A stretch of DNA of 43,081 nt, from assembly GCA_016210005.1 (NCBI GenBank), contig JACQVA010000001.1, positions 1 to 43,081 of the forward strand, read 5' to 3'. The position numbers were made by a program, and so were the translations under genes. Positions within the stretch are counted from its first letter, which is position 1, and the number at the start of each line of letters is the position of its first letter. Shown here one piece after another: positions 4,899 through 24,634 of this stretch. The notes beneath the pieces were generated by a model. It saw nothing but the letters and a program-made list of their open reading frames with translations, did not search any database and was not told the origin of the DNA. The stretch is from Deltaproteobacteria bacterium (GTDB lineage Bacteria; Desulfobacterota; Binatia; HRBIN30; JACQVA1).

Positions 4899-7313
4899 AT
4901 GATCCGGATTCGACTTGCCGTAATCGTCGCCATCGGGTTGTTGTGCGCCGGGCCGGTGCAGGCTCGGCGGGGCGTGCTGCCGTCGAACCAGCGTGTCAGC
5001 GCCGCCGGCAAGCAGGTCAATCTCGGGCTCTTTCCTGCCGGCATGGCGATCAGCCGGGACGGGGCCTTTCTGCTTGTCACCAATAACGGCTTCCTCGGCC
5101 AATCCCTGATGAGCGTGAACACGACCACGCTGCGAACCAAGTTCCAAACCATCGAGACAGGTTTCAACTCGCTGTTTCAGGGCATTGTGTTGGCCCCCGA
5201 TGGGCGCACCGGCTTCGCCTCGGCCGGCGGCTGGGAGAACAACACCGGCGAGACCGTCGTGCGCATCGCCACCATTGCGGACGACGGCAAGGTTACCGCC
5301 GCCGGCTGCGACAGCGGCGGTTGCATCTCGGTCAACGGCTTCCCGGCGGGCTTGGCCATCAGCCCAGACGGACAGAAGCTGTTCGTGGTGCAGAACCTGG
5401 CGCACGCCTTGGCGGTGGTGGACGTAGCCAGCCGTACGATGCTCACCAGCATCGTGGTGGGCAAATCGCCGTGGAGCGTCGCCGTGCACCCGACGCGCCA
5501 CGAGGTCTACGTGACTAATCGCGGCGACCGCACGGTGTCGATCGTCGATACGGACCTAAACCGTGTGGTGGCGACCGTACCAACGGGCTCGAACCCCAAC
5601 GCACTGGCAGTGACGCCTGACGGCAGCAAGGTCTTCGTCGCCAACGCCAACACCGACGATCTCACGGTTTTCGACGTCGCCAACCCCACCGCGGCACGGA
5701 CCATTTCGCTGACCCCGTTCGCAGGAGCCCGCCCCGGCGCCAGCCCCTCGGCGCTCACCATCAGCCCCGATGGCGCGGCCGTCTACGTCGCCCTGTCGTG
5801 GGAGAACGCGGTGGCGGTGATCAACGCGGCGACCGAAGCCCTGCAAGGCTACATCCCCACCGGCTTCTATCCCAGCGCGCTGGCCGTGAGCCCGGATGGC
5901 CAGACGCTTTACATCGCCAACATGAAGGGTGCCCGCACTTATCCCCGCACGCCCAAGCTGCAGAAAGCCGACTACCGCTTCAACATCGATCTCGGCGGCA
6001 CGTACGGTGTGCGCGGCACACTATCGGTGCTGCCGGTGCCCAGCGTGGCCAAGCTCGCCGGCTACACCGGCCGGGTGCGCTTCAACAACGGTTACGGTGC
6101 CGGGCTGCGGCCGAGCAACCACCGGCCGGCCCCGACCCCCTGCTTTCCGATTCCCTGCGCGGCTGAAGACATAACCCCGATCCGCCACGTCTTCTTCATC
6201 GTGCGGGAGAACAAGACCTATGATCAAGTGTTGGGCGATCTGCCCCAAGGCGACGGCGACCCCAGCCTGGTGCTCTACGCCCGCGATCGTCAGGGACGGG
6301 AGATCTCGCCCAACACCCGCGCGCTGGCGCAGGAGTTCGTGCTCATGGACCGGCTGTTCGCCAACAGCGAGAAGAGCGAGCCTGGGCACAACTGGGTCAT
6401 GGGCGCAATCGACACGGATTACGGCGAGCGCACCTGGGTGCCAGTCAGCTTCGAGGTCCGGCCCGACGACATCGGCAGTCACCTTTCCAATGAGGACGGC
6501 GACGTCGTCCGCGGCACCGTCTATCCGATTGCCACGCCCGAGGGCGGCTTCTGGTTCGACAATTGCCATGAACACAACGTCAGTTTTCGTAACTACGGCG
6601 AATTCCTGCGCACCGACGAAGCCGGTGTGCCGCTGGACTACTGGGCGCAGAACACTAATGACGACTTCTCAGTGTTCGATCTGCGCGTAAGCGACGTGAG
6701 CCGTTATGAAGTCTGGCGTGCCGACTTCGAGCAGCAAGTGGCGGCCGGCACGGTGCCGCAGTTCACCTACATCGCGCTGCCGAACGACCATACCGACGGC
6801 CGCACCAGCGGCTCCCCGGTCCCCGAGTGGTACGTGGCCGACAACGACTACGCCCTCGGCAAGATCGTCGAGACCATCTCCAACACGACTGAAATATGGG
6901 AACATGCAGTGATCTTCGTGATCGAGGACGATCCCCAGTCGGGCGGCGATCACGTCGATTCGCACCGGACGGTGGGCCTGGTGATCGGCCCCTACGTCCG
7001 GCGCCGCGCCGTCATCCACACGCGCTACGACATGGCCAGCATGCATCGCACGATGGAGCTGATCCTCGGCCTGCCGCCGATGAGCATCTTCGACCAGATG
7101 GCGATCGTCATGCGCGACGTCTTCACCGAGACGCCGGATTTCACTCCGTACAGCGCGCTGCCGCAGCAAATTCCGCTCGCCTACAACGGGGAAGGCACTT
7201 CGGGTGCCGCGTTATCGCGGCGCTACAACTTCAGCCGCCCCGATCGCGTACCCGATGCCGTGCTGAACCAGATCCTGTGGGACTACTTCCACGAGCGGGA
7301 GCGCCGCCGCTAG
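4899..7313 (+). CDS. Secreted YVTN beta-propeller / alkaline-phosphatase-superfamily phosphoesterase
   Basis: An 804-aa exported protein. Residues 1-22 form a signal peptide ending in QAR. Residues of about 45-360 contain repeated propeller units with SPDG and VYVTN/LYIAN strands (for example HEVYVTNRGDRTVSIVDT), as in YncE-like proteins. Residues of about 425-800 form a phosphoesterase module beginning RHVFFIVRENKTYDQVLGDL, with EPGHNWVMG, PNDHTDG and IEDDPQSGGDHVD, which hold the likely metal ligands. This two-domain arrangement is known in bacteria, and its periplasmic substrate is generally unknown. The start is supported by AGGGGGAG at 4885-4892. Its end overlaps the convergent GT2 gene by 4 bp. 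Confidence 0.82.
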   Translation: MIRIRLAVIVAIGLLCAGPVQARRGVLPSNQRVSAAGKQVNLGLFPAGMAISRDGAFLLVTNNGFLGQSLMSVNTTTLRTKFQTIETGFNSLFQGIVLAPDGRTGFASAGGWENNTGETVVRIATIADDGKVTAAGCDSGGCISVNGFPAGLAISPDGQKLFVVQNLAHALAVVDVASRTMLTSIVVGKSPWSVAVHPTRHEVYVTNRGDRTVSIVDTDLNRVVATVPTGSNPNALAVTPDGSKVFVANANTDDLTVFDVANPTAARTISLTPFAGARPGASPSALTISPDGAAVYVALSWENAVAVINAATEALQGYIPTGFYPSALAVSPDGQTLYIANMKGARTYPRTPKLQKADYRFNIDLGGTYGVRGTLSVLPVPSVAKLAGYTGRVRFNNGYGAGLRPSNHRPAPTPCFPIPCAAEDITPIRHVFFIVRENKTYDQVLGDLPQGDGDPSLVLYARDRQGREISPNTRALAQEFVLMDRLFANSEKSEPGHNWVMGAIDTDYGERTWVPVSFEVRPDDIGSHLSNEDGDVVRGTVYPIATPEGGFWFDNCHEHNVSFRNYGEFLRTDEAGVPLDYWAQNTNDDFSVFDLRVSDVSRYEVWRADFEQQVAAGTVPQFTYIALPNDHTDGRTSGSPVPEWYVADNDYALGKIVETISNTTEIWEHAVIFVIEDDPQSGGDHVDSHRTVGLVIGPYVRRRAVIHTRYDMASMHRTMELILGLPPMSIFDQMAIVMRDVFTETPDFTPYSALPQQIPLAYNGEGTSGAALSRRYNFSRPDRVPDAVLNQILWDYFHERERRR

Positions 7314-8230
7314 CCGGCGCCGCCGCCACTTCGAGAGTCGGGCTCCACGGCCTCCTCCGGCGCCGCCGCAGCGGTGTAGCGATCCATGCGCAGCTGCGCG
7401 ATCTGCTCCGACACCAGACCCATCATGAAGATGATCACCCCGGTGCTCAGCAGCAGGGCCGCCATGTTGGTGAAACGGTGCTGGGTGAAGAAGGTGTAAG
7501 CGTAGTAGCCCAGGCCGGTGGCCAGGAAGGCGGCACTGACCGGCAAGAAGACGCGAAAGGGCGCGAACAGCGTCGCCACCCGGCTGATGATGAGCAAGAA
7601 GCGGGTGCCGTCCCGCCACAAGCGGATCTTGCTCTGGCCGGTGCGTTGCCCGAACTCGACCGCGACGTACTTCACCGGCAGCCCGGAGCGCAGCACCGCC
7701 AGCGTCAAGGTCGAGGGATAGGAAAAGGTGTTGGGCAGCATATCGACGAAACGCAGCGCATCGCGCCGCCGTAGCGCGCGGAAGCCCGAGGTCAGGTCCT
7801 CGATGCGGTACTGGGCCACGTAGCTGGCAAAGCCGCTGTAGAGGCGGTTGGCAAGCAAGCGGTGGTAGCCGGCTTCCGAGCGCCGCACGCGCGCACCGAC
7901 GACCATGTGGTAGTCGCTCAGGTGTGCCAGCAGTGCCGCAATCGCCGCCGGCGGGTGCTGGCCGTCGCCGTCCATCAGCAGCACCACCTCGCCGCGGGCG
8001 GCACGCAGGCCGCTCTTTACCGCTGCGCCGTTGCCGATGTTGTACGGATGGCGGATGACCCGCGCGCCCTGCGCCGCGGCCACCGCGGCGGTGTCGTCGG
8101 TTGAGCCGTCGTCGATCACGATGATTTCGTGCGCCGGCAGCGCTTGCGCCGCGATCGCCCGCAGCACCGCCGCGAGAGCGGAGGCTTCGTTGAAGGCGGG
8201 GATGATGATGGAGAGTGCCGGCGGCGCCAT
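7310..8230 (-). CDS. Glycosyltransferase family 2 (polyprenyl-phosphate sugar synthase type)
   Basis: A 306-aa enzyme with a GT-A domain (SIIIPAFNEA near the N-terminus, IIVIDDGSTDDT, and the metal-binding MDGDGQHPP). Two C-terminal transmembrane helices lie at about 225-280. The layout matches dolichyl-phosphate-mannose-synthase-like enzymes that load a sugar onto undecaprenyl phosphate on the cytoplasmic face. Such lipid-linked sugars are the donors for GT-C enzymes, two of which (GT39-like and TMTC-like) are encoded just upstream in the same operon. It starts right after the stop of the GT39-like gene, and is the last gene of the unit. Confidence 0.85.
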   Translation of the reverse strand: MAPPALSIIIPAFNEASALAAVLRAIAAQALPAHEIIVIDDGSTDDTAAVAAAQGARVIRHPYNIGNGAAVKSGLRAARGEVVLLMDGDGQHPPAAIAALLAHLSDYHMVVGARVRRSEAGYHRLLANRLYSGFASYVAQYRIEDLTSGFRALRRRDALRFVDMLPNTFSYPSTLTLAVLRSGLPVKYVAVEFGQRTGQSKIRLWRDGTRFLLIISRVATLFAPFRVFLPVSAAFLATGLGYYAYTFFTQHRFTNMAALLLSTGVIIFMMGLVSEQIAQLRMDRYTAAAAPEEAVEPDSRSGGGAG

Positions 8231-10000
8231 TTATGGTTCCCGGATCTCGTACAGACCAAATCCGTTCTCACTATACAATAGCAGCAGATACTGGCGGCTG
8301 AATTCGGCCCAGCGCTGGCCCGGCGCCGCCGCCAAGTTGTGCTGCACGTAATCGTCGAGCAGGGCGTTGGCTGTCACTAAGTGCGAGATACCTTCAGCCC
8401 GCAGCGAGCGGGCGATGGCCGCAGCGCTGTCTGCGGCCTCGATGTGGCGACGCAAGGTCCCGCCCGAGAGGCCGAAGTCGTAAACGTATTCCCGTTCACA
8501 GTAGTAACTGCGGTTGCCGAGAAACGCCAGATGAATTCGGGCGGAGGCGGGCAGCTGCGAGTTGGCGACCCGCAACACGGGATACTCGGGAATGAACTGG
8601 GCGATGTAAGCATGGCGATCCAGCCTGCCGCTCAGATACGACAGCGGGGCCAGGCGCAGCCACAGCTGCCCGCAGTGGCCCGCGCTGAAGAGCAACGCAC
8701 CGCCGAGAGCCAGCCCCGCCAAGGCGGCGGTGGCACCGCCGGCGCGGTGCAGGTGCAGCCAGTACTGCACGGTGAGCAACACCAGCGGGGCGACGATCGC
8801 GATGCTGTAGCGCACCCGCAAAGCGGTGAGCAAGAACGCCGACAGCGCAAAACCGGCGGCGTAGGCCGCCAGCAGCCACTCGCGGCGGCTCGCGCCCCGC
8901 CTCACGGCGGCAAAGCCCAGCAGGAGCAGCGGGCTGAGGACGCCGTCGAAACGGGCCGGATCGCCCTCACGACCGGTGATGAAGATGCGCACCGGCAATA
9001 GCGCGATCTCGAGCCAGCTCTCGCCGTAAAGCGCCCGGCGCTGCGTCAGGAAGTCGAGGCTGGCCCGCGCCGGCAACGGGCGCCCATGGAGCAGGGTATT
9101 GAACAAGGGGAAGATGGGGTTGCCGGTCTCGGTCCAGTTCTTGATCAACCATGGTGACGGCACCACCAGCGCTGCCGCGATGAAGATCGCGGCGGCTGCC
9201 AGCTGCCGGCGGTTGCTCATCGCCGGTTGTGGCAGGAGCACGGTGCCGGCCGCCAGCAAGGGAATGACGAGCATGCCGTTGTACTTGGTGGCGCCCGCGC
9301 AACCCGCCAGCAACCCAGCGGTGATCAGCCATCCGGGGCGCGGCTGCTCCGCCCAGGTCAACAGCGCCACCAGCGCGCCGGTGGCGTAGAAGAGCAACCC
9401 CAGATCGACGTAGGCGCTGGCCGCCAGCACGAACACCACCGGAGTGCTGAGCACCAGTAGCGCCGCGAGCGCAGCGGCGCCGGGGCCTTCCTGCCGCCGG
9501 ACATAGAGCGCGAGCAGGGCCGCGCTGGCGAGGCCGTAGAGCAAGTGCAGGAACTTCGGCAGCTGGTCCGGCAGCCCGAGCAGCAGCGGCGTGTACGCCA
9601 TCTCCAGCAGCATCGGGTAGTACGACTGCTCGGCAAACGGAATCTCGACAATGCGCTGCACTCGCAGGTACAGCGCCGGCAGCGCAAGGTGATGGGTCAG
9701 CTCGTCGCGGGCCACCGGCGGCACTAAGTTGAGCACCGCCAGCGCCGCAGCGAGCAACAGGATCCCGGTACCGGCTGCCGCCGCCGGCCGGCTTGATGGC
9801 CACAGGGTGAACGCCGCCGCAAGGCAGACGGCGAGCAAGGCCGCGGCAATCAGTGCGGGCACCAGCAAGGCCGGCGCGGCGAAGGCGCTGGCGCTGGCCC
9901 GTCCCCACAGCAGGTAGACATCCCCGAGCACACCGGTCCCCACGGCGGCCAGCAGCGACCACCACAGGGCCGTGGTTGCCTCGGGGCGGGGACTGCTCAC
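8231..10000 (-). CDS. GT39/ArnT-like membrane glycosyltransferase
   Basis: A 589-aa polytopic protein with roughly a dozen hydrophobic segments and a C-terminal soluble tail. ARDELTHHLALPALYL, in the first large loop, carries the acidic pair expected for GT-C fold enzymes, which take sugar from a polyprenyl-phosphate donor on the outer face of the membrane. YYPMLLEMAYTPLLL and KYNGMLVIPLL are also typical of GT39-like proteins. The acceptor is unknown. The start is a GTG overlapping the stop of the ABC permease gene (GTGA), so the two are translationally coupled. Confidence 0.72.
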   Translation of the reverse strand: MSSPRPEATTALWWSLLAAVGTGVLGDVYLLWGRASASAFAAPALLVPALIAAALLAVCLAAAFTLWPSSRPAAAAGTGILLLAAALAVLNLVPPVARDELTHHLALPALYLRVQRIVEIPFAEQSYYPMLLEMAYTPLLLGLPDQLPKFLHLLYGLASAALLALYVRRQEGPGAAALAALLVLSTPVVFVLAASAYVDLGLLFYATGALVALLTWAEQPRPGWLITAGLLAGCAGATKYNGMLVIPLLAAGTVLLPQPAMSNRRQLAAAAIFIAAALVVPSPWLIKNWTETGNPIFPLFNTLLHGRPLPARASLDFLTQRRALYGESWLEIALLPVRIFITGREGDPARFDGVLSPLLLLGFAAVRRGASRREWLLAAYAAGFALSAFLLTALRVRYSIAIVAPLVLLTVQYWLHLHRAGGATAALAGLALGGALLFSAGHCGQLWLRLAPLSYLSGRLDRHAYIAQFIPEYPVLRVANSQLPASARIHLAFLGNRSYYCEREYVYDFGLSGGTLRRHIEAADSAAAIARSLRAEGISHLVTANALLDDYVQHNLAAAPGQRWAEFSRQYLLLLYSENGFGLYEIREP

Positions 10001-10764
10001 GTAAATTCCCGGCGCTGAAACAGCGCGACGCTGAGCAAGAGCGTGAGCGCCGTGTAACAGACCGCGTACAAGACGATGTGGGCAAAATACCAGGGCGAAA
10101 ATCGCTCGCCGAAGATCACTTGGTCGGCGATATTGAAGCGATCGAGGTGCGGCACGATGGCGTACAACAGGCGGGAGCCTTGCTGGACGATCGGCGGGTA
10201 TTCATCGCTGCCGAAGGCCCGCAAGTACGACGCCGAGCGCCCGGTAACGAACGCCGCCGCGGTAAACAGACCGGCCAGGGCTGGGGTCACCACAATCGAG
10301 GAGAAGAACAGGGCCAGAGCTATCAACACCATCAGTTCCAACACGACGGAGGTGGCCGCCAGCAGCAAGCGCCAGTCCACCTGCGGTTCCAGGCCGCGCA
10401 GGAAGATCAGCAGTGCCGCGCTCATCAGGGCCACCATGACCGCAACCGTCGCCAGCAAACCCAAGAACTTGCCGAGAATGAACTGCCAGCGTGCCACCGG
10501 CTTGGCCAGGATGTTGAAGATCGTGCGCTTGCCCAGCTCCTTGTTCAGCAAGTTGACGCCCAGTACGACGGTGGTGATCACGCCGAAGAGCGAGATGCTC
10601 AGCAAGCTGAAGTCCTTGATGAACTTCATCTGGTCGCCGATGGAGGCGGCGCCGAAGACCGCCGCCACCCCCACGAGTAGGAGCGCGAACAGCATGATGG
10701 AGTACAACACCTTGTTGCGAATGGCTTCGCGGGCGGTGTTGAGGGCGATGGAGAGCACTTTCAC
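9997..10764 (-). CDS. ABC-2 type transporter permease
   Basis: A 255-aa membrane protein with six predicted helices, beginning VKVLSIALNTAREAIRNKVL. The conserved region GVNLLNKELGKRTIFNILAKP follows helix 2, as in NosY-like ABC-2 permeases. The GTG at 10764 is chosen because an AAGGGGGT ribosome site precedes it and it begins one base after the upstream gene's stop. It should pair with the ATPase encoded at 12480-13418. The TMTC-like gene lies between the two halves of the transporter, which is unusual and ties the glycosyltransferases to the exporter. Confidence 0.83.
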   Translation of the reverse strand: MKVLSIALNTAREAIRNKVLYSIMLFALLLVGVAAVFGAASIGDQMKFIKDFSLLSISLFGVITTVVLGVNLLNKELGKRTIFNILAKPVARWQFILGKFLGLLATVAVMVALMSAALLIFLRGLEPQVDWRLLLAATSVVLELMVLIALALFFSSIVVTPALAGLFTAAAFVTGRSASYLRAFGSDEYPPIVQQGSRLLYAIVPHLDRFNIADQVIFGERFSPWYFAHIVLYAVCYTALTLLLSVALFQRREFT

Positions 10765-10765
10765 G

Positions 10766-12508
10766 TTACCCCCCTTCCTGCGGCAACTGCCCGGCTGTAA
10801 GCCGTTCCACCAGCGCGCGCAATTCACTATCGCTCGGATTGAGGGCGAGCGAGCGGCGCAGGATCTCGAGTCCGCGCTCGCGCTCGCCCTGGCCTAGCAA
10901 GCTGCCACCGAGGCCCTTCAAGCAGTTGGCGTTGGCGGGGGCGAAGCTCAGCGCCCGGCGACAGGCGCGTTCCGCGGCCTGGTAGTCACGCTCACGGTAG
11001 AGCAAACCGCAGAGGTTTTCGTTGGCTTTGCTGTGGGCCGGCGTAATCACCAAGGTCTTTCGATACCAGTCTTCAGCGCCCTTCGCCAATCCCTTCTGTT
11101 CGTAGATGAGGGCGATATCGAAGGCGGAGTCGTCGTAGTCGGCATAGAGCTCCAACGCCTGGCGCAAGTGCAGCGCCGCCCGATCCAGCTCTCCGCGCTC
11201 GTGTAACACCGTGCCTAAGTTGTGGTGGGCTTTGGCACTGCGGGGAGCTGTGCGTACCGTCGCGGCGAACAGCGTCAGATTGTCGCGCCAGTCGCGGTTG
11301 CGCAGCCACGTCCGCGCGCTGAAGGCAACCACCACACCGGCCAATAGGCCAAGCGCAAGCCATGCCGGGCGCATGATCCGTCGCGGCGACAGATAAGCCG
11401 CCAGCGCCACGACGAACAAGGCGACGCCGGCAGAGGGCAGATAGAGCAAGCGCTCGGCCTTCGTCGTTCCGATGGCGAACAGGAAGTTGCCGGTTAGCGA
11501 CAGGGTAACGAGCGGGAACACTGCCAGCACGCTCAGGCGCGGGTTCGGTCTAGCCCACCACAACCCGCCAAACAGACTGCCCGCCAGCAGTGCCACGCCG
11601 CACAGCGCCGGGGCTGACGCCCAGGACGCCTGCGGCACCACCTGCGACCACGAGTAGTCCGCCGACAGCACCAGTGGTACCAGCAGCAGCCCGGCGTAAT
11701 CAGTCAGCACGGCACAGGCGGTTCGGATGCGCAACTGCAGCGGGACATAGGCCAGGAAGTTATCGAGCGCTGAGGGCGGTATCGGCGAGGTGAGCGAACC
11801 GACGACTTGGGTGCGCGCCAGCACGAACAGGCCGGCAACGGCCAGGAACGGAATCCAGTGTCCGCTGCGCAGCTCTCGGCCTACAGCCGGCGCCAAACTG
11901 CCGCCGCGGTGGGCGGCCCGACACAACGTCACCAGAGGGAGAATCGTGATTCCGCTCTCCTTGCTGAACACCGCAGCGCCAAAGGCGACTAACGCCAGCG
12001 TATCCCAGCCCGGGCGCGTACTAGCCATCGCCGCCAGCGTGGCAACCAAGGCCAGCATGCCGAACAGCGCGCTCAGCAGTTCGGCCCGTCCGACGATGCT
12101 GGTGACGGCTTCGGTATGGACCGGATGCACGGCAAACAGCAGCGCCGCAACCAACGCCACCGGGCGGCTGCGACACCAGCGCCGCCCGAGCGCAAAGACC
12201 AGCGCCGTCACCAGCGCGTGCAACCCGATATTGACCGCGTGGAAGGTCCGGGCGCTGGCTGGAGCCAGCTTCTCGTTGAGGGCGTAGCTCAGCAACGTCA
12301 GCGGACGGTAGAGATCGCCCGGATAAAGCGGCGTAGCCAAGATGCCCCAGCCATCGAGCGGGCCGGTCACCAGTGGGCTCTGGCGGATGGCCAAGAGGTC
12401 ATCGAATGTGAAGTCGGCGCCTAGGGCGTTGAGGTACGGGATGATGGCCGCGCCGATCACCAAAGCCAGCGGTCCCCACTCACGGGCTAGGCGTGGCGTC
12501 GCCAACAT
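10766..12508 (-). CDS. TMTC-like GT-C glycosyltransferase with C-terminal TPR repeats
   Basis: A 580-aa protein with about ten transmembrane helices (residues 15-385) followed by three to four TPR units (about 400-575). The N-terminal loop has FTFDD, the acidic GT-C motif, then YRPLTLLSYALN and HPVHTEAVTSIVGRAELLSA, hallmarks of the TMTC family. In animals TMTC1-4 are linked to O-mannosylation of cadherins; bacterial homologues are poorly characterised. The TPR region probably lies outside the membrane and binds the protein acceptor. The ATG at 12508 overlaps the ATPase gene by 29 bp. A TTG further upstream (12562) would overlap by 83 bp, so the exact start is uncertain. Confidence 0.78.
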   Translation of the reverse strand: MLATPRLAREWGPLALVIGAAIIPYLNALGADFTFDDLLAIRQSPLVTGPLDGWGILATPLYPGDLYRPLTLLSYALNEKLAPASARTFHAVNIGLHALVTALVFALGRRWCRSRPVALVAALLFAVHPVHTEAVTSIVGRAELLSALFGMLALVATLAAMASTRPGWDTLALVAFGAAVFSKESGITILPLVTLCRAAHRGGSLAPAVGRELRSGHWIPFLAVAGLFVLARTQVVGSLTSPIPPSALDNFLAYVPLQLRIRTACAVLTDYAGLLLVPLVLSADYSWSQVVPQASWASAPALCGVALLAGSLFGGLWWARPNPRLSVLAVFPLVTLSLTGNFLFAIGTTKAERLLYLPSAGVALFVVALAAYLSPRRIMRPAWLALGLLAGVVVAFSARTWLRNRDWRDNLTLFAATVRTAPRSAKAHHNLGTVLHERGELDRAALHLRQALELYADYDDSAFDIALIYEQKGLAKGAEDWYRKTLVITPAHSKANENLCGLLYRERDYQAAERACRRALSFAPANANCLKGLGGSLLGQGERERGLEILRRSLALNPSDSELRALVERLTAGQLPQEGG

Positions 12509-13418
12509 ATGCAAGATAGCGTTCTTCGAGCGAGGGCTGCTCGGGCGTGATTGACTCGACAAAACCGTTGGCGGCTGCGATCAAGGCAACGGCACGCTGC
12601 AAGGCTGGGCGGTCCGGGAGCCGGAACGACCACTGCGGGCCGCTCGCGCTCCCGCCCAGCTGGTGACCGAGTTGCTGCAGTTGAGGCAGCACCGCCGCCG
12701 GTAGCGCGCTCGCCGTGAGCGCAAACGGCCCAGCCGCCTCGCCGCTGCGCGCCATTTCCACAACTTCGCGCACGCGGCCGGCAACCAGAATGGCCACCCG
12801 ATCACACAGCGCTTCGGTGTCCGGCAGAATGTGCGACGAGAAGATCACGGTCATGCCCTCGTCGTGGAGTTCGGCAATGAGGTCGCGCATTTCCTTGCGG
12901 CCGGTAGGATCGAGTCCCGACATCGGCTCGTCGAGGATAGCGAGCTGGGGCCGGTGAATGATGGCTTGGGCGATGCCGACGCGCTGTAAGTTGCCTTTGG
13001 ACAGCTGGCGCATGGTGCGCCGCAGGAAGGGCCCGAGTTGGAGGCGCTCCACCAGCGCAGCTACCCGCCGGCGGCGCTCGGCGCCCGCGACACCGGCGAG
13101 CTGGGCGTAGAAGTGCAGGGTTTCATCGACCGTGAGGTAATCGTAGAAATAGGGCTGCTCGGGCAAGAATCCCATGCGGCTCCTGGCCCGTGGCAGGGTT
13201 ACCGGCAGGCCGTCGAAGAGCACCTGTCCGCGGCTGGGGCGGAGCAGGCCCAGCATCAGCTTGACGGTGGTGGTCTTGCCGGCCCCGTTGGGTCCGATCA
13301 GGCCGAAGACCTCACCGGGGCGGAGCGAGATCGAGACATCTTCGAGCACGCGGATCGGACGCAGCGTCCAGTTGTGCCGGTAGTGCTTCGACAGTCCGAC
13401 GGCTTCCAGCAAGGCCAT
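12480..13418 (-). CDS. ABC transporter ATP-binding protein (ABC-2 exporter type)
   Basis: A 312-aa nucleotide-binding subunit. Walker A is GPNGAGKTT at 42-50 and the signature is LSKGNLQR (the LSKG form common in NosF/CcmA-type exporters). Walker B is [12 protein letters not shown] and the switch His is in FSSHIL. About 90 residues beyond the ATPase core may be regulatory. The ATG at 13418 begins 2 bp after the upstream gene's stop; a GTG at 13424 would overlap it as GTGA. The partner permease is encoded at 9997-10764. Confidence 0.88.
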
Positions 13419-13420
13419 AG

Positions 13421-14413
13421 TCACCAATGCACCGGGTTGCCCTGGCGATACTGCTCACGCGCCTTGCTGGTATAGAGGCGCAACGGCGACTGGCCGGACG
13501 TGCTGCGCACCGCCCCGGTGGCTGGATCAAACACGTAGTGGCCGCCGAACGGCTCGCGCGGCAGCGCGGAGATGACCGCCGCCGTCACCAGGGCGTCGAG
13601 ATTCTCCGGTGGCTGCCCGAACTGCTCGTGGTAACGCCGCACCGCCTCGGTCAAGGCCTCGAGATGGCGGCCAAGCGTCAGTTCGTGGAGGCGCTGTTGG
13701 ACCACTTGGCGCAAAGAGTCGTCCCGCGTCGAGGCCGCCAGTTCCGTCAGGAAGGACTCGGCCGCCCGGTTGTCCACGCCTTGCGCATAGATGATAGCCG
13801 CTAGCCGAGATACATACGGATCAGCACCAGGCAGAGCTGCCGCACGGCCCAGATGAAACGCTGCCGGCTGCAGGTCATCTTTGAAGAAGTAGTAATTGAA
13901 GCCCACCAACCAGTGCAGATACCAATCATCCGGGAATTGTCGCAAGCCCTTGTGCAGCAAGGCGATCCCATCGTCGGGCAGGTTGGCCTCCCAGGGCAAG
14001 ATCACGCCGGCAAAACGGTAGACATGCTGGGCCCGCGGGTCCAAGTCGGTGACCACCTCGCACATCTTCGCCAACCAGCGATACGAGCGGTCGCTGCGGT
14101 AGTGGAGGCCGAAGTAACTGATAGTGCGAAACCACAGAACGTCGGCGACCGCGCTGGCATGGCCGAGCGAGGCCACACGCACAAAGCGGGAATCGGGCAC
14201 ATAGGTGAAATCGTGCTCACCGGCCGGCGGCTGAGTTTGTTCAAGTACACCGCTGGCGTAGCGTAAGCCGGCGGCGAGAGCGACGGCCGTACCGGCCATG
14301 ACGATGCCGGCGAGCGACCGGAGCAACGGCGCGTGGGCGTGGACTGTACCGGCAGCAGGTGGGCGGCGGCTGCGCGGAAGCTGGTGCCCCGCGGTGACAT
14401 TGCTGTTGGTCAT
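13421..14413 (-). CDS. Membrane-anchored TPR-like protein, unknown function
   Basis: A 330-aa protein with one N-terminal transmembrane helix (about residues 35-55) and a helical, TPR-like domain facing the periplasm. Visible elements are SVADVLWFRTISYFG-type alternation, YRFAGVILPWEANLPDDGIALL, and a run of paired helices. The last 90 residues (PPENLDALVTAAVISALPREPFGGHYVFDP) resemble the C-terminal segment of some pseudopilin-like proteins. It is the first gene of the six-gene unit and runs into the ABC ATPase gene, so it may be an accessory or acceptor of the glycosyltransferase/exporter system. No specific family is recognised. The start at 14413 follows GTAGGG. Confidence 0.62.
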   Translation of the reverse strand: MTNSNVTAGHQLPRSRRPPAAGTVHAHAPLLRSLAGIVMAGTAVALAAGLRYASGVLEQTQPPAGEHDFTYVPDSRFVRVASLGHASAVADVLWFRTISYFGLHYRSDRSYRWLAKMCEVVTDLDPRAQHVYRFAGVILPWEANLPDDGIALLHKGLRQFPDDWYLHWLVGFNYYFFKDDLQPAAFHLGRAAALPGADPYVSRLAAIIYAQGVDNRAAESFLTELAASTRDDSLRQVVQQRLHELTLGRHLEALTEAVRRYHEQFGQPPENLDALVTAAVISALPREPFGGHYVFDPATGAVRSTSGQSPLRLYTSKAREQYRQGNPVHW

Positions 14414-14614
14414 CCCTACGTCCCTACCTCCGGAATCGGGCACTCCCGCGCACAGTCGAGCCACGGGTAACAAACCATCGCACAAATGCAAGCAGGAAGT
14501 GCACAGCCAGTCAGTGGGATAGCGGGCGTGAAGTCTGAGTCGGCGTGAAAGCGGCGGCTTGCTGTGCGCGGGAGTGGTGTAGTACGAAACAGGCCGGATG
14601 GTGGAGGTTGGGCA

Positions 14615-17600
14615 ATGACCCTGAGGCTGGCGCGGGTGGCGCCGTTGTTGTTCGGCTCCGGGGCGTGCGCGCTGATCTATCAAGTGGCGTGGCTGCGGGA
14701 GATGCGCCTGATCTTCGGGGCCTCGACCGCGGCCTCCGCGGCGGTGCTGGCGATCTTCATGGGCGGGCTCGGCCTGGGCAGCGCGCTCCTGGGGCGGCGG
14801 GCCGACCGCCACCCGCGGCCGCTGGCCTTCTATGCCAATCTGGAGTTGATGATCGCGGCCTCAGCCGCTTTGACTCCAGGCCTGGTGTGGATTGCGCGGC
14901 AAGCGTACGTCGCGCTCGGCGGCTCGGTGGTGTTGGGGTTGGGCCTGGCAACCATCACGCGATTGCTGCTGGCGACGCTGGTGCTGTGCGTGCCGACGAT
15001 CCTGATGGGCGGCACGCTGCCCGCCGCCGCCAAGGCGGTGGAAACCGACGAAGACATCAACCGGCGGCATCTCGCGGTGCTTTACGGTACCAACACCCTG
15101 GGCGCGGTCACCGGCGCGTTCGTCTCCACCTTCTTCATGCTCGAAGTGTTGGGGACGCGCAGCACGCTCTGGTGTGCCGCGCTGTTCAACGTGTTAGTCG
15201 GAATCACCGCGCGTGCCATGGCGCGCCGGCAGGGGACGCGCCCGGCGGCGCCGCCGGCTATAGCAGCCGATGAGGCAACAACGGCAGTAGCACCGGCGGG
15301 GTTTGTTTTGGGTGCGGCGGCGGCCGTCGGCTTCTCCTTCTTGCTCATGGAGCTGGTGTGGTATCGCATGCTCGGGCCGTTGTTGGGCGGTTCGTCCTTC
15401 ACCTTCGGACTCATTCTGGCGGTGGCGCTGTTCGGCATCGGGGTGGGGGGCGTGGCCTACGCGCTGACCGGCAACCAACGGCGCGCAACGCTCACCGGTT
15501 TTGCGCTGACGTGCTCGCTCGAAGCCGTCTGCGTAGCGTATCCCTATGCCTTGGGCGATCGCGTTGCGTTCCTCGCCATCTTGTTACGCCCATTAGGCAG
15601 CCTCGGATTCGGCGGGTTGGTACTGAGCTGGGCGCTGGTTACCGGGCTGGTGGTGTTGCCGGCCGCGGTCATATCCGGAATCCAATTTCCGCTGTTGATT
15701 GCACTCCTCGGCCGCGGGGGTGAGCGCGTCGGGCGCCACGTGGGCCAGGCGTACGCCTGGAACACCCTGGGCGCGATCGCCGGCTCACTGGCCGGTGGTT
15801 TCGGGTTGTTGCCGGGCCTATCGGCGCCGGGCGCGTGGTCTGCAGTGGTGATAATTTTGGTGGCGCTCGGGGTCGTGGCAACCGTCTTGGGGTTGCGGGC
15901 AGAGCGCCAACTGCTGCGCACGGCCCTGCCGGTGGCGGCGGCGCTGACTGCGATACTGATGCTGCGGGCTACGGGACCGACGGCGGCGTGGCGACACAGC
16001 CCGATCGGGGCTGGACGCGCGGACCAAGCCCACGCCACGCGCAATAGCTTGCAAGACTGGGCCAACGCCCGCCGCCGTCACGTTCGCTGGCAGGTGGACG
16101 GCGTCGAGAGCAGCGTAGCACTGGATGCCGGCAACTCGTACGCCTTCGTGGTCAACGGCAAGACCGACGGCAACGCGCGCAACGATGCCCCAACGCAGGT
16201 GATGACCGGCCTGGTGGGAGCCATCCTGCACCCGCAAGCGCGCCGAGCTTTGGTGGTGGGCTTGGGCACCGGCAGCAGTGCCGGCTGGCTCGGGGCCGTC
16301 CCGACGATGGAACGGGTGGATGTAGTGGAACTTGAGCCCGCGATTGTCGACGTGGCTCGCGCCTGCACCCCGGTCAATCAGGACGTATTGGCCAATCCGA
16401 AAGTGCGGATTCACATCGCCGATGCGCGCGAGGTACTGCTGACTACGCCCGAGCGCTACGATCTGATCTTCTCCGAGCCCTCCAACCCTTACCGAGCCGG
16501 CATCGCCAGCTTGTTCACACGGGAGTTCTATGAGTCGGCCGCATTGCGCTTGGCCGAGGGCGGTATCTTCTTGCAGTGGCTGCAAGCATACGAGGTCGAT
16601 AGCCAAACCGTCCGCACCGTCTTCGCCACCCTGGCATCGGTATTCCCGTCGGTGGAGGTTTGGCGAACGGCTGATGTGGATCTGTTGCTGCTGGGGACAA
16701 TGAAGCCGATCAGGTACGACCTGCCGGCTTTGCGGGCCCGGGTGCAGCAGGAACCCTTCAAGACGGCGCTGGCCGTCGCTTGGCGCACAACCAGTGTCGA
16801 AGGATTCCTGGCGCGCTACGTCGCCGGTCCGTCGCTCGTTTCGGCGATCGCTCAACTCGAAGGCAGCTTTCTCAACACCGATGATCAGACGCTGGTTGAG
16901 TATGCCATGGCTCGCAGCGTGGGAAGGAGCAACCTGTTCAACATCGCCGATCTGCGGCAACTTGCGCGCGCACGGCGGGAAGACCGCCCACCGTTAGGCA
17001 GCGAGGCGCTCGATTGGGCCGGGGTGGAGGACGAGCGCATTGCGCTGTACACTGCAGTGGGCGTTGCTCCGCCGCTGTGGAGTGACTTGACCGCCGACCA
17101 GCAATCGCGCGCAAAGGCCCAGATCAAGTATCTGGAGGGCAATTCCGCCGCCGCGCTGGCGGCGTGGCGTGCGCAATCCCGCGAGCCGGTGGGGCTGGTC
17201 GAGCTGCTCGTGCTCGGGGAGGTCTTGGCCGATCGTGGCGATGAAGCCGCCGCCCGCTATATCGAATCATTGCGCCACCAACAGCCGATCGAGGCCGATG
17301 CCATGCTCGGCCACCTGCGCTGGCGGCAAGGGCGGTTGCAGGAGGCGGCCGCCGCGCTCACGGCTGCGTTCATCGCCTATCGGAGCGATCCGTGGCCGCT
17401 GCCGCACGTGCTGGGCCGGGCTCTTGAGGTGGCAACAGCGGTTGCAGCGGCAGACAAACAATTGGGCGAGCAGCTGCTCGAGGCCTTGACCACGCCCTTC
17501 GCGATCCTGGCGCTCGATGAAGAACGCCGCTCAGCGGTGCTGAAGATCGCCACGCAATTGAATTTCGACAAGTACTGTTTGCCTGCGCTGGAGGCGCTGG

Positions 17601-17815
17601 AGCCGCACGCCCCGTGGCAGCGCGAGGTGCTGCGTGCGCGCGTTCGGTGCTATCGCGCCGCGGGACACCCGCGGGTGGAGCAGGCTGAGGAAGATTGGGG
17701 GGCGTTCTTGGCGGGTGAACCAGCGGCTTTTGGGCGTGGGCTGGAGGCGGCCGCACCGGAAGCCGCAGCTGGCGTAGAAGCTTCAACCAGCACCAAGAGA
17801 ACTGGTGCACAGTGA
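14615..17815 (+). CDS. Fused multi-TM / spermidine-synthase-like methyltransferase-fold protein
   Basis: A 1066-aa protein. The first 450 residues form two blocks of hydrophobic helices (FGSGACALIYQVAWLREM at the start). Residues of about 510-735 form a spermidine-synthase-like Rossmann domain: ALVVGLGTGSSAGWL, VDVVELEPAIVDVAR, and YDLIFSEPSNPYRAG. The last 330 residues are TPR-like helices. Proteins with this order are widespread but mostly uncharacterised, and polyamine synthesis should not be assumed. The start at 14615 has GGAGG 7 nt upstream. It is divergent from the glycosyltransferase/exporter unit across 201 bp and may share regulation. A 13-bp-stem hairpin follows the stop. Confidence 0.78.
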   Translation: MTLRLARVAPLLFGSGACALIYQVAWLREMRLIFGASTAASAAVLAIFMGGLGLGSALLGRRADRHPRPLAFYANLELMIAASAALTPGLVWIARQAYVALGGSVVLGLGLATITRLLLATLVLCVPTILMGGTLPAAAKAVETDEDINRRHLAVLYGTNTLGAVTGAFVSTFFMLEVLGTRSTLWCAALFNVLVGITARAMARRQGTRPAAPPAIAADEATTAVAPAGFVLGAAAAVGFSFLLMELVWYRMLGPLLGGSSFTFGLILAVALFGIGVGGVAYALTGNQRRATLTGFALTCSLEAVCVAYPYALGDRVAFLAILLRPLGSLGFGGLVLSWALVTGLVVLPAAVISGIQFPLLIALLGRGGERVGRHVGQAYAWNTLGAIAGSLAGGFGLLPGLSAPGAWSAVVIILVALGVVATVLGLRAERQLLRTALPVAAALTAILMLRATGPTAAWRHSPIGAGRADQAHATRNSLQDWANARRRHVRWQVDGVESSVALDAGNSYAFVVNGKTDGNARNDAPTQVMTGLVGAILHPQARRALVVGLGTGSSAGWLGAVPTMERVDVVELEPAIVDVARACTPVNQDVLANPKVRIHIADAREVLLTTPERYDLIFSEPSNPYRAGIASLFTREFYESAALRLAEGGIFLQWLQAYEVDSQTVRTVFATLASVFPSVEVWRTADVDLLLLGTMKPIRYDLPALRARVQQEPFKTALAVAWRTTSVEGFLARYVAGPSLVSAIAQLEGSFLNTDDQTLVEYAMARSVGRSNLFNIADLRQLARARREDRPPLGSEALDWAGVEDERIALYTAVGVAPPLWSDLTADQQSRAKAQIKYLEGNSAAALAAWRAQSREPVGLVELLVLGEVLADRGDEAAARYIESLRHQQPIEADAMLGHLRWRQGRLQEAAAALTAAFIAYRSDPWPLPHVLGRALEVATAVAAADKQLGEQLLEALTTPFAILALDEERRSAVLKIATQLNFDKYCLPALEALEPHAPWQREVLRARVRCYRAAGHPRVEQAEEDWGAFLAGEPAAFGRGLEAAAPEAAAGVEASTSTKRTGAQ

Positions 17816-17866: not shown

Positions 17867-18238
17867 TTATTGCATACCGCCGTTGGCGCTATCCCAACTA
17901 AAGGTCTTCGTTCCGCCGGTCGACTTGGCCGTTCCGGTGAAGGACCCGGTAGCGGCGGTCATACTCACCGTCACCGTGTCAGAGACGGAGACGCCGGGCA
18001 GCAACGACATGGTGCCCGGGCCGGTCTTGGAGTCGGTCTTGTAAACCTGGAAGGTGGCGTAGTACGCCTCCTCGCCCGTGGCCGCATTGCGCAGGTCCGA
18101 GTTGGCGCGGGCATCAAACCCCCTCTGGCGATACGCGGTGAACTGCGGGATGGCGATGGCGGCCAGGATGCCGATGATGGCTACGACCACCAACAGCTCG
18201 ATCAGTGTGAACCCCTTGGATTCCTTCAATGATGTCAT
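17867..18238 (-). CDS. pilA: Type IV major pilin, copy 1
   Basis: A 123-aa prepilin. The leader of nine residues ends KG, then FTLIELLVVVAIIGILA, with the required Glu at +5 and Pro at +22. PilD cleavage would leave a 114-aa subunit polymerised by PilB/PilC. Aromatic residues fall at mature positions 1, 24, 27, 32, 50, 51, 54 and 57. AAAGGAG lies 7 nt before the ATG and a sigma-54-like promoter lies about 195 bp upstream. Apart from the leader, the product differs from copy 3 by one residue (Asp to Asn near the end). Most nucleotide differences are synonymous, so both genes look under selection. Confidence 0.93.
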   Translation of the reverse strand: MTSLKESKGFTLIELLVVVAIIGILAAIAIPQFTAYRQRGFDARANSDLRNAATGEEAYYATFQVYKTDSKTGPGTMSLLPGVSVSDTVTVSMTAATGSFTGTAKSTGGTKTFSWDSANGGMQ

Positions 18239-18642
18239 GTCTATTCTCCTTTGTAATCCTTATATTGATGTAGCAGCTAGCCAAGCAAAGTCATAGTCAC
18301 TAATTCCCCTAGGGCCCGAGCGCGGCAGAATAGAAGCCGGCAATCCGGTCGATGCAGACCGCCGCGTACAAATTGCTATGAGCTGCCAATGCTCCCATTC
18401 GCGGTATCGCTAGTTTCCACGAGCAATCTTCAGCAAGCCGTGTACCAGCGGAATGGCTCGGGCGTTGGTACGGATCGCCGGACCTGAGCGTGAAGTTATT
18501 GACGGCAGCCTGTCCGTTTTTGACGGCCAATACGCCCGGCCGGGCAGCAGCCCTTGGGGGCACGCCACCACGCGCTCATTGCGCGCGGCAACGGGCGGTG
18601 CGTTGTTGACGATCGGAAGGCGGGACACCCCGCCGGACGCGG
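18239..18642. other. Intergenic region upstream of pilin copy 1
   Basis: A 404-bp spacer. It holds the sigma-54-like promoter at 18432-18447, a roughly 180-nt untranslated leader for pilin 1, and a 6-bp-stem hairpin (18619-18634) just after the stop of pilin 2. The 9-mer TTTTTGACG at 18517-18525 also occurs upstream of the copy 3 promoter (19881-19889) and could be an activator site. No coding sequence was recognised. Confidence 0.5.
18432..18447 (-). promoter_or_regulatory. Sigma-54-type promoter of pilin copy 1
   Basis: The minus strand reads TGGTACACGGCTTGCT. This matches the -24/-12 consensus TGGCACG-N4-TTGCT except at two positions, with GG and GC at the required 10-nt spacing. An almost identical element precedes pilin copy 3. 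A transcript would start near 18421, about 180 nt before the start codon. The adjacent regulator has the GAFTGA loop needed to activate sigma-54 polymerase. Confidence 0.68.
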
Positions 18643-19005
18643 CTATTGGAAGCCGCCGAGAGTGCTGTCGTACGAGTACGTCTGCGTTCCCTTCGTGGAC
18701 TGCGACGTTCCCGTAAAGCTGACACTGCCGCTTGCCACCATCGCCACCGTTACCGTATCCGACACAATCAGACCCGGAAGGATCGCGCTGATGGCGGGAC
18801 CGGTTGTCGCGTCGGACTTGTAGACTTGATATGAAGCGAAGTAAGCTTCCTCGGCCGTTACTGCGTTACGTAGATCGGAGTTGGCGCGGGCATCGAAGCC
18901 CCGTTGCCGGTAAACCGTGAACTGGCGAATAGCGATCGCGGCAAGGATCCCGATGATCGACACCACCACCATCAGCTCGATCAGGGTGAACCCGCGCGCG
19001 TACAT
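18643..19005 (-). CDS. Divergent type IV pilin, copy 2
   Basis: A 120-aa prepilin if it starts at the ATG at 19005 (leader MYARG). The mature protein begins FTLIELMVVVSIIGILA and keeps Glu5. Position 22, almost always Pro in such pilins, is Arg (AIRQF); the codon is CGC where the sister genes have CCG. The remainder is alignable to copies 1 and 3 (RGFDARANSDLRNA) but diverges in the C-terminal half. No ribosome site was found before this ATG or the upstream in-frame starts (19026, 19086). No sigma-54 promoter lies in the 150 bp before it, and the terminator of copy 3 does. It may be a poorly expressed, minor or decaying pilin. Confidence 0.75.
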   Translation of the reverse strand: MYARGFTLIELMVVVSIIGILAAIAIRQFTVYRQRGFDARANSDLRNAVTAEEAYFASYQVYKSDATTGPAISAILPGLIVSDTVTVAMVASGSVSFTGTSQSTKGTQTYSYDSTLGGFQ

Positions 19006-19102
19006 CTTGGCTTGGCGGGACACTGTACGGGCGGGGTGCGTATCCTTGCCGCGTGACACGATTGTCTCCGATTTCCAGATCCTCATGTTGGCCCAATGGG
19101 AA

Positions 19103-19134
19103 AAAGGGGCATGGCGAACCCGCCATGCCCCTTT
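19103..19134. terminator. Terminator hairpin after pilin copy 3
   Basis: A 14-bp perfect stem (19103-19116 with 19121-19134) and loop AACC. A-rich sequence on the plus strand at 19101-19105 gives a T-run at the 3' side on the minus strand. It should stop transcription from pilin 3 before pilin 2. The stem core is shared with 17817-17847, so the hairpin was duplicated with the pilin gene. Confidence 0.82.
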
Positions 19135-19155
19135 GCCCGCAACGCGGCGACAGGC

Positions 19156-19536
19156 TTATTGCATACCGCCGTTGGCGCTGTTCCAACTGAAGGTCTTCGT
19201 TCCGCCGGTCGACTTGGCCGTTCCGGTGAAGGACCCGGTAGCGGCGGTCATGCTCACCGTCACCGTGTCGGAGACGGAGACGCCGGGCAGCAACGACATG
19301 GTGCCCGGGCCGGTCTTGGAGTCGGTCTTGTAAACCTGGAAGGTGGCGTAGTACGCCTCTTCGCCCGTGGCCGCATTGCGCAGGTCCGAGTTGGCGCGGG
19401 CATCGAACCCTCTCTGGCGATACGCGGTGAACTGCGGGATGGCGATGGCGGCCAGGATGCCGATGATGGCCACGACCACCAACAACTCGATCAGCGTAAA
19501 GCCTTTGGTCTCTCTCAGTGCCTTCAGTGTCGTCAT
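19156..19536 (-). CDS. pilA: Type IV major pilin, copy 3
   Basis: A 126-aa prepilin with a 12-residue leader ending TKG. The mature sequence is identical to copy 1 except Asn for Asp in the C-terminal FSWNSANGG. GGGAG lies 8 nt before the ATG, and a sigma-54-like promoter at 19751-19766 gives a leader of about 200 nt. It is the pilin gene nearest the regulator and export genes. The near identity of copies 1 and 3, with divergent leaders and upstream regions, points to a duplication kept uniform by selection or gene conversion. Confidence 0.93.
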   Translation of the reverse strand: MTTLKALRETKGFTLIELLVVVAIIGILAAIAIPQFTAYRQRGFDARANSDLRNAATGEEAYYATFQVYKTDSKTGPGTMSLLPGVSVSDTVTVSMTAATGSFTGTAKSTGGTKTFSWNSANGGMQ

Positions 19537-20099
19537 TGTGCTTGCTCCCTTTCTTTCCCTGTTGATTTTCTGCCTTATCGATCTTCTGTGTTCGCCTAGT
19601 TCTTTGAATCTTCCATGCTCGCCTACCCGGTCGGCCGGTTAAGGGCCGAGGGCCCGTGACGAGCCGAGAGGCGGTCCGTGGGCGCGCCTAGCTCGGTTTC
19701 GATCTCGTTGGTAGATCATCGCCGTCATCACGTTTTCGCTTTTCTGGTTGAGCAAGCCACATACCAACGCCGCACCGGCTTGCTGCACAGCGAATCTCTT
19801 CACGCGCGTGCGGGTTTTCCACGAAGGCGATGACTAGACCCGCTGTGGAATCCGAAGAGTGACACAAATCGCCCGCGACTTTTTTGACGTTTTCGCCGGG
19901 TAGCGACCGCACGTTGGCATCGGTTCCCAAATGCGGCATTCGGTCCGGGAAGTGCGGCGGGAGCAGCAACGCCCTACTCCATACGCAGGTTGCACGGCAG
20001 GCACTGAACCGCGATCGGCCGTTGTAAGCTGCTGTGTCGGGCTGGAGCTTTGGAAATGGGCGAGAAGGGGTGGCGGCGCTGTCCACATGTGGGGCTGAT
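19537..20099. other. Intergenic region between pilin copy 3 and the pilus regulator
   Basis: A 563-bp spacer containing the copy 3 promoter (19751-19766) and its long leader. A minus-strand open frame at 19688-20128 runs through it and over the promoter. It resembles no family I know, so it is not called. The 9-mer TTTTTGACG at 19881-19889 is shared with the copy 1 upstream region. Confidence 0.5.
19751..19766 (-). promoter_or_regulatory. Sigma-54-type promoter of pilin copy 3
   Basis: The minus strand reads TGGTATGTGGCTTGCT, with GG and GC 10 nt apart. It differs from the consensus TGGCACG-N4-TTGCT at two positions and from the copy 1 promoter at three. The predicted start is near 19740, about 200 nt before the pilin ATG. 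Confidence 0.68.
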
Positions 20100-23392: not shown

Positions 23393-23496
23393 TTTTTTGA
23401 CCTCCGCAGCGTAAACCAAAACGCCAGAAATTCAGGCACTTGCCAGAATCCCGGCGATTCCTATTGCGGATTGAAGCAGTTGGTGTGCCAGACGCG

Positions 23497-24627: not shown

Positions 24628-24634
24628 GCACTCC

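Follow-up and report, generated by a model that had tools for sequence, protein, structure and literature searches.

What are membrane glycosyltransferases doing among the genes of an ABC transporter? The question is raised by a unit of six genes in a 43,081-nt stretch of DNA (contig JACQVA010000001.1, assembly GCA_016210005.1; the whole stretch is called the window below) from a Deltaproteobacteria bacterium of Candidatus Binatia. The first-pass annotation, made from the letters alone, had proposed an undescribed system that glycosylates envelope proteins or exports a glycoconjugate. Our analysis shows that the core is very probably the Candidatus Binatia version of the PilG-PilH-PilI (PilGHI) type ABC module of a type IV pilus (T4P) locus. 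We read the unit as a whole as this module plus an accessory, swappable kit for pilin O-glycosylation, with a probability of roughly 0.55.

The unit consists of six minus-strand open reading frames (ORFs), 7310-14413, free of internal stops (Table 1). It is as tightly packed as first described. A 2-nt gap separates the anchor and ATPase genes, and the ATPase gene overlaps the TMTC-like gene by 29 nt if the latter starts at the ATG at 12508, or by 83 nt from an alternative TTG at 12562. A 1-nt gap precedes the permease gene, which overlaps the PMT-like gene by 4 nt, and the GT2 gene follows without a gap. The earlier enzyme classes (GT2, PMT/GT39-like, TMTC-like, ABC-2 permease and ATPase) hold in Pfam.

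Table 1. Features of the window, in the order in which they are discussed
Feature	Position	Strand	Evidence
PilG-like anchored TPR-like protein, 330 aa, first gene transcribed	13421-14413	-	ORF; own profile
PilH-like ABC ATPase, second gene	12480-13418	-	PF00005 2.9e-30
TMTC-like GT-C glycosyltransferase, C-terminal TPR repeats, third gene	10766-12508	-	Pfam, predicted structure
PilI-like ABC-2 permease, fourth gene	9997-10764	-	PF12679 9e-18
PMT-like GT-C glycosyltransferase, fifth gene	8231-10000	-	PF13231 2.2e-10, above cut-off
GT2 of ArnC/DPMS/GtrB type, sixth gene	7310-8230	-	PF00535 5e-33
PilB	24635-26329	-	PF00437 9.3e-146, MshEN 1.9e-21
PilT	23497-24627	-	PF00437 2.8e-47
PilC	22172-23419	-	PF00482 1.8e-70
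PilS/PilR-like single protein: PilS-type sensor with six transmembrane helices, PAS, sigma-54 activator, helix-turn-helix	20100-22175	-	Pfam
Type IV pilin copy 1, candidate acceptor	19156-19536	-	prepilin motif; globular part 28% Ser/Thr
Type IV pilin copy 2, candidate acceptor	18643-19086	-	prepilin motif; globular part 26% Ser/Thr
Type IV pilin copy 3, candidate acceptor	17867-18238	-	prepilin motif; globular part 28% Ser/Thr
Divergent MFS/spermidine-synthase-like gene, 1083 aa, outside the system	14564-17815	+	Pfam, NCBIfam
Beta-propeller and phosphoesterase-domain protein	4899-7313	+	

The transporter genes form a PilGHI-type set, with an ABC ATPase, an ABC-2 permease and an anchored accessory protein. 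The first gene had been annotated as encoding a membrane-anchored TPR protein. Its predicted model (mean pLDDT 85.9) has a single helix at the N terminus, then helical repeats, and a small pair of strands at the C terminus, and 12 of the 47 proteins in its alignment match TPR_14 in Pfam. The protein itself has no Pfam match, and the model finds none with Foldseek at E 0.001, the best being the TPR protein MamA (E 2e-3). The predicted fold makes the earlier assignment reasonable, though not proven. No NCBIfam model is matched above its cut-off by any of the six proteins; for the ATPase this covers the best 25 of 188 matches, which are led by the DrrA and GldA types. The permease matches only ABC2_membrane_2 and ABC2_membrane_4 in Pfam (E 0.01), and its family profile finds NosY (2.4e-8) as the only PDB match at 0.01. 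Wzm/Wzt systems for O-antigen export are defined by an O-antigen permease family and a glycan-binding ATPase tail. This type of export was considered for the window pair and rejected, as the permease does not match that family and the ATPase has no extra tail domain (Pfam, E 0.01).

In Myxococcus xanthus, a single operon (MXAN_5780-5783) is described as encoding PilI, PilH, PilG and PilA, given as an ABC-exporter complex (PMC3546991), and PilGHI is termed essential for pilin translocation, after Wu 1998 (PMC3724824). A 2018 survey reports that the arrangement in Desulfuromonadales resembles that of the Myxococcus suborder with some exceptions, and that experimental support for a role of PilGHI in ABC transport was not available (PMC6060248). 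We assign the core to the PilG-PilH-PilI type because its composition and gene order match those in Myxococcus and because pilus genes adjoin it in several phyla. An undescribed system is thus not supported as far as the core is concerned, since a known module, with xap as its Geobacter counterpart, largely accounts for it. Less ordinary are the TMTC-like gene inside the module and the PMT-like and GT2 genes after PilI.

The unit belongs to a pilus locus, as indicated by pilB, pilT, pilC, a PilS/PilR fusion and three pilin genes on the same strand (17867-26329), all missed by the first-pass annotation, and by the gene order of relatives. The three pilins (17867-19536) also supply candidate acceptor proteins nearby. 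In the order to which the window belongs, the permease is strongly matched (E 7.8e-69 or better) in 12 of 15 genomes, counting the window's own. Anchor, ATPase and permease genes are kept in all 11 other order-level loci, with a partial anchor in L027, a 5-kb contig (L, G and C numbers denote loci, genomes and contigs), so the unit is not a chance assembly. The shared order is pilB-T-C-SR-(pilin)-anchor-ATPase-(TMTC)-permease-(PMT-GT2), a conserved neighborhood rather than scattered homologues. PilB, PilT, PilC and PilSR precede the trio wherever the stretch reaches that far, except that PilT is not seen in L020. PilD follows the unit, in some relatives behind an additional TMTC-like gene; in L022, PilD and a GspH-type minor pilin come next. 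The trio lies between pilin genes and pilD in L021, L022, L023, L024, L026 and L028. As in M. xanthus, the relatives' trio thus comes after the pilB-T-C-S-R-A genes and before pilD. The window differs from M. xanthus in that the TMTC gene splits PilH from PilI, PMT and GT2 genes follow PilI, a divergent gene stands between pilins and unit, PilS and PilR are one protein, and PilD is elsewhere.

The transferases vary more than the trio. A TMTC gene lies between ATPase and permease in 8 of the 11 loci, PMT and GT2 genes follow the permease in 4, and one locus (L026) has neither. Among the permease-less genomes of the order, G012 carries a locus (L165) that reads PilB-T-C-SR-pilin-TMTC-TMTC-PilD-GspH without ABC genes (two TMTC genes directly after the pilin; region L165 9161-12293), G001 yields only a 40% PilC match, and in G014 the contig stops inside PilSR (L166, excluded from every count). 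The transferases are therefore separable from the transporter, given TMTC genes without ABC genes in L165 and an ABC trio without transferase in L026. This weakens the coupling of transferases and exporter that had been proposed, as do the loci outside the order discussed below. An undescribed standalone glycoconjugate exporter was likewise rejected, because the trio adjoins pilus genes with and without transferases.

We surveyed the trio and the pilus genes in 124 loci, 12 in the order (11 with permease and L165) and 112 outside it, using local profiles built from order-level proteins. The outside loci include 74 of 80 named loci, which had been kept from at least 548 confirmed among 591 matched stretches; L048-L052 and L054 were dropped as lying on the same contigs as order-level loci. 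The resulting percentages do not describe a random sample, since L167-L184 and most of L216-L234 were chosen from the best-scoring permease matches. Both the ATPase gene and the anchor gene are found within 2.2 kb of the permease gene in 17/18 same-phylum, 10/17 Myxococcota and 62/74 named loci, and a T4P core gene or pilin is present in the stretch in 17/18, 15/17 and 43/74, respectively. Within the order the 2.2-kb limit holds for only 3/12 loci, because the inserted TMTC gene exceeds it and L165 has no permease. As a control, none of the seven loci with weak permease matches has any T4P profile match. L215, L218 and L219, in which the permease is split by insertion and neither ATPase nor T4P profiles match, stand outside the Myxococcota count of 17 and inside the totals of 124 and 112. 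Myxococcota loci with this gene order are matched by the profiles of permease and ATPase, and in 10/17 by that of the anchor. L227 reads PilB-T-C-S-R-pilin-anchor-ATPase-permease-PilD, and L223 shows this order from PilT on, where its stretch ends. Among class-level genomes, 7/43 show only weak permease matches (E 6e-7 or worse). Strong PilM matches (E 1e-40 or better, counted by eye) occur in 40/58 genomes, including all 12 with a strong permease.

With respect to the transferases, the TMTC-like protein matches TPR families down to 5e-13 in Pfam, with PF02366 below its cut-off at 0.0016. In its predicted model (mean pLDDT 84.5), the membrane part aligns with Pmt4 (Z 21.4, root-mean-square deviation (rmsd) 3.9, 336 residues), ArnT (Z 19.4, rmsd 4.8, 338 residues) and oligosaccharyltransferase subunits (Z about 21), while the tail aligns with TPR proteins. 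TPR proteins also lead the best 50 Foldseek rows, and the GT-C match comes from the second structural comparison. According to the model, the protein has a GT-C membrane fold. The TMTC signature DUF1736 (PF08409) is matched by 4 of 16 aligned members (best 8.6e-13), and the window protein has no match at E 0.01. Neither the TMTC nor the PMT alignment matched any sequence of a solved structure. An Asp-Glu pair is invariant in the six sequences of the PMT-like alignment, and we take it to be the PMT catalytic pair. The best PDB matches of the GT2 include ArnC (7.2e-14), DPMS (9e-13) and sll0501 (8e-10), the last presumably GtrB, and its match to NCBIfam AglJ, at 6e-36, is still below cut-off. 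These closest solved homologues are polyprenyl-phosphate sugar synthases, in agreement with the earlier suggestion that the GT2 makes a lipid-linked donor; by homology, it likely makes a polyprenyl-phosphate-linked sugar.

In the mechanism we propose, the GT2 would load a sugar onto polyprenyl phosphate at the inner face, as its family suggests. On the outer side of the inner membrane, the two GT-C enzymes would take the sugar from this donor and attach it to Ser/Thr of the pilin globular domain, with the TPR tail of the TMTC-like enzyme possibly helping to recruit the pilin. At the inner membrane, PilGHI would work on this pool of pilins and render them assembly-competent, as is reported to be required in Myxococcus.

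The case for pilin as the acceptor rests mainly on the recurrence, beside the module, of enzymes that are not homologous to each other, several having relatives that modify proteins. At least one of seven transferase profiles was matched within 5.5 kb on the same strand in 27/124 loci (11/12 in the order and 16/112 outside). In addition, 27 polytopic neighbor ORFs were scanned with Pfam in three sets (7, 10 and 10), in which other transferase types could be missed. The first set gave a TMEM260-like protein (L053), a PMT below cut-off (L100), TPR only (L020) and PilD with weak TPR (L029), and no Pfam family for L087, L109 and L124. The second contained seven Wzy_C proteins, one GT4, a PMT_2 just below cut-off (L228) and one without match (L216). 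The third comprised two Bac_transf, three LPG_synthase_TM, two GT4, one TMEM260-like, one EamA and one ABC2_membrane.

In the same phylum, the seven large polytopic ORFs scanned from the interval between pilin and anchor are all of the Wzy_C (O-antigen ligase) type with C-terminal TPR matches, weak in L177 and reduced to a single match (0.0018) in L180, and a GT4 gene follows the permease in L174, L177 and L180. TMEM260-like genes lie between pilin and anchor in L053 (PF11028 3e-26) and after the permease in L230 (7e-13). By local profiles, L124 has a PMT-like gene before the trio, matched at 1e-52 although Pfam names no family, and a GT2-like gene after it. A PMT-like gene comes after PilD in L228 and L232, and Bac_transf and LPG_synthase_TM genes lie upstream in L168 and L170. 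In L179, a second ABC-2 permease (PF01061) and an ATPase directly follow the trio (7926-9504, minus strand), and then several GT2-like genes. From this recurrence we infer that pilin is the acceptor, which we consider somewhat probable for O-glycosylation by the window transferases. The envelope-protein glycosylation proposed earlier is thus plausible.

The main rival, which we consider possible but unlikely, is a Xap-like scheme in which the transferases build a glycan for export by the ABC pair, giving a surface polysaccharide that acts jointly with the pili. In Geobacter sulfurreducens, GSU1498-GSU1508 is described as an extracellular anchoring polysaccharide cluster whose ABC ATPase is needed for the polysaccharide (PMC3495685), xapD/GSU1501 is named an exopolysaccharide (EPS) exporter (PMC4974642), and xapD insertions lower growth on electrodes (PMC5585712). 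As in the window, an ABC gene there lies near a pilin gene with glycan genes. Four same-phylum loci (L171, L174, L177 and L180) have a xap-like layout, G. sulfurreducens itself being known here by description only. They carry Wzy_C-TPR and GT4, presumably polyprenyl-diphosphate type chemistry, whereas the window carries GT-C enzymes and a polyprenyl-phosphate type GT2. Wzy_C, GT4, Bac_transf and the second exporter of L179 would also fit polysaccharide synthesis, although they are part of the set counted above as support for pilin modification. The M. xanthus pilGHI deletion has S-motility and EPS defects, which were complemented (PMC5544727). However, the EPS defect looks indirect, since it is common to pilBTC and pilMNOPQ deletions (PMC5544727) and is suppressed by a PilB mutation in pilG, pilH and pilI deletions (PMC3724824). 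The permease families and the NosY match also argue against polysaccharide export, and the Pfam scan showed no flippase, polymerase or chain-length family in the six genes. Moreover, in 96 of the 112 loci outside the order no match to any of the seven transferase profiles falls within 5.5 kb, a result that counts against polysaccharide export, against the coupling proposed earlier and against a general glycosylation kit alike.

Several further observations weigh against pilin glycosylation by a PilGHI-linked kit, and some of them favor other rivals. L020, L025, L029 and L030 keep transferases without a pilin between PilSR and the trio, as would be expected if the enzymes acted on another envelope component of the locus, such as minor pilins, PilG, or a lipid or lipopolysaccharide sugar. 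ArnT, a GT-C enzyme acting on lipid A, is among the good structural matches. On the other hand, PMT-, TMTC- and TMEM260-type enzymes initiate protein O-mannosylation in animals (PMC11292533), and the TMTC genes of L165 directly follow a pilin gene, so we regard another acceptor as distinctly improbable. Seven further TMTC-like GT-C matches elsewhere in the window genome G000 (contigs C60, C181, C233, C138, C56 and C97; two close together on C181, the one on C97 partial) show that such enzymes are not pilus-specific. Together with the patchy presence of TMTC and PMT-GT2 genes in the order, these paralogues could suggest that functionally unrelated transferases were merely captured in the pilus operon. 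We consider such hitch-hiking very improbable, given that the interior positions are identical in several of the order's families and that further groups have different enzyme families close to the module.

The remaining objections concern the module and the pilins. The likeness to M. xanthus PilGHI is one of composition and gene order as described in the literature. The pilus does not require the module everywhere, since 28 of the 40 PilM-bearing genomes among the 58 relatives have no strong permease match. The module also occurs away from recognizable pilus genes: 31 of the 74 named loci have no T4P profile match, 11 of them with at least 20 kb of sequence. In Myxococcota, 7 of the 17 loci show no anchor nearby. 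Survey loci were themselves the source of four transferase profiles (Wzy_C, TMEM260, GT4 and the second PMT), and these source loci match by construction. In the window, the divergent gene at 14564-17815 splits the pilins from the unit, and the sole PilD found in the genome lies on another contig, at the edge of C170. Finally, pilin Ser/Thr content was rejected as a glycosylation marker. It does not track the transferases, as the pilin of transferase-free L026 is equally rich (25%, against 22-31% in the others).

Transferase genes that go with their pilins are known from other systems. TfpW (GT-C, D-Araf) and TfpO of Pseudomonas aeruginosa, and PglL homologues, which adjoin pilins in 21/31 cases (PMC3643930), show that GT-C and O-antigen-ligase-like solutions both exist for pilins. 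They differ from the window TMTC and PMT enzymes in subfamily, their excerpted descriptions mention no ABC module, and, unlike them, the window enzymes are known from sequence or model only. Eukaryotic TMTC1-4, TMEM260 and PMT/POMT share the GT-C fold and, in TMTC, the TPR tail. The eukaryotic enzymes use dolichol-phosphate mannose, and a polyprenyl-phosphate donor is correspondingly expected in the window, whose enzymes differ in being bacterial and pilus-linked. In the open-licence literature, we found no earlier report of PilGHI combined with a transferase, judging by titles and abstract starts, and no paper joining Binatia, type IV pili and glycosyl- terms.

More broadly, PilGHI and a swappable protein glycosyltransferase might form one widespread pilin-maturation station, although at present we hold this to be an improbable extension. 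In it, a NosDFY-related ABC machine, not kin to glycan exporters, would move a periplasmic TPR arm to hold or release pilin in the inner membrane, and a captured lipid-donor transferase (TMTC-TPR, PMT, TMEM260-like or Wzy_C-TPR) would modify the pilin. If so, bacterial TMTC and TMEM260 members would have pilin substrates, where the animal ones O-mannosylate cadherins and plexins, and the Geobacter xapD polysaccharide phenotype would arise in part indirectly, from a defect in pilin. Even on the narrower view of pilin modification, enzymes of the TMTC and TMEM260 types would gain bacterial substrates, and the unrelated transferases around the module, together with L165, provide a concrete, testable link to it. 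A pilus locus is now named for Candidatus Binatia.

The PilS/PilR-like fusion shows neither a histidine kinase nor a receiver domain in the Pfam output and may be a membrane-bound, one-protein pilus regulator. A single match of 590-666 residues to it occurs in 9/11 order-level loci (L021 is cut and L027 too short), and in Myxococcota L223 and L227 the PilS and PilR matches are separate. The best PilM match of the window genome is on contig C158. In L029, a TMTC-like GT-C and PilD share one 853-codon open frame (6248-8806, minus strand), which may be a TMTC-PilD fusion or a spurious read-through start, with PilD possibly initiated from an internal codon.

Around the unit, the divergent MFS/spermidine-synthase-like gene has no match in the 18 loci compared, and the beta-propeller gene is convergent with the GT2 gene, which it overlaps by 4 nt. 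Pilin copies 1 and 3 share 97% identity over 300 nt. In their mature form, the window pilins contain no cysteines, whereas the nine other pilins compared have two or four.

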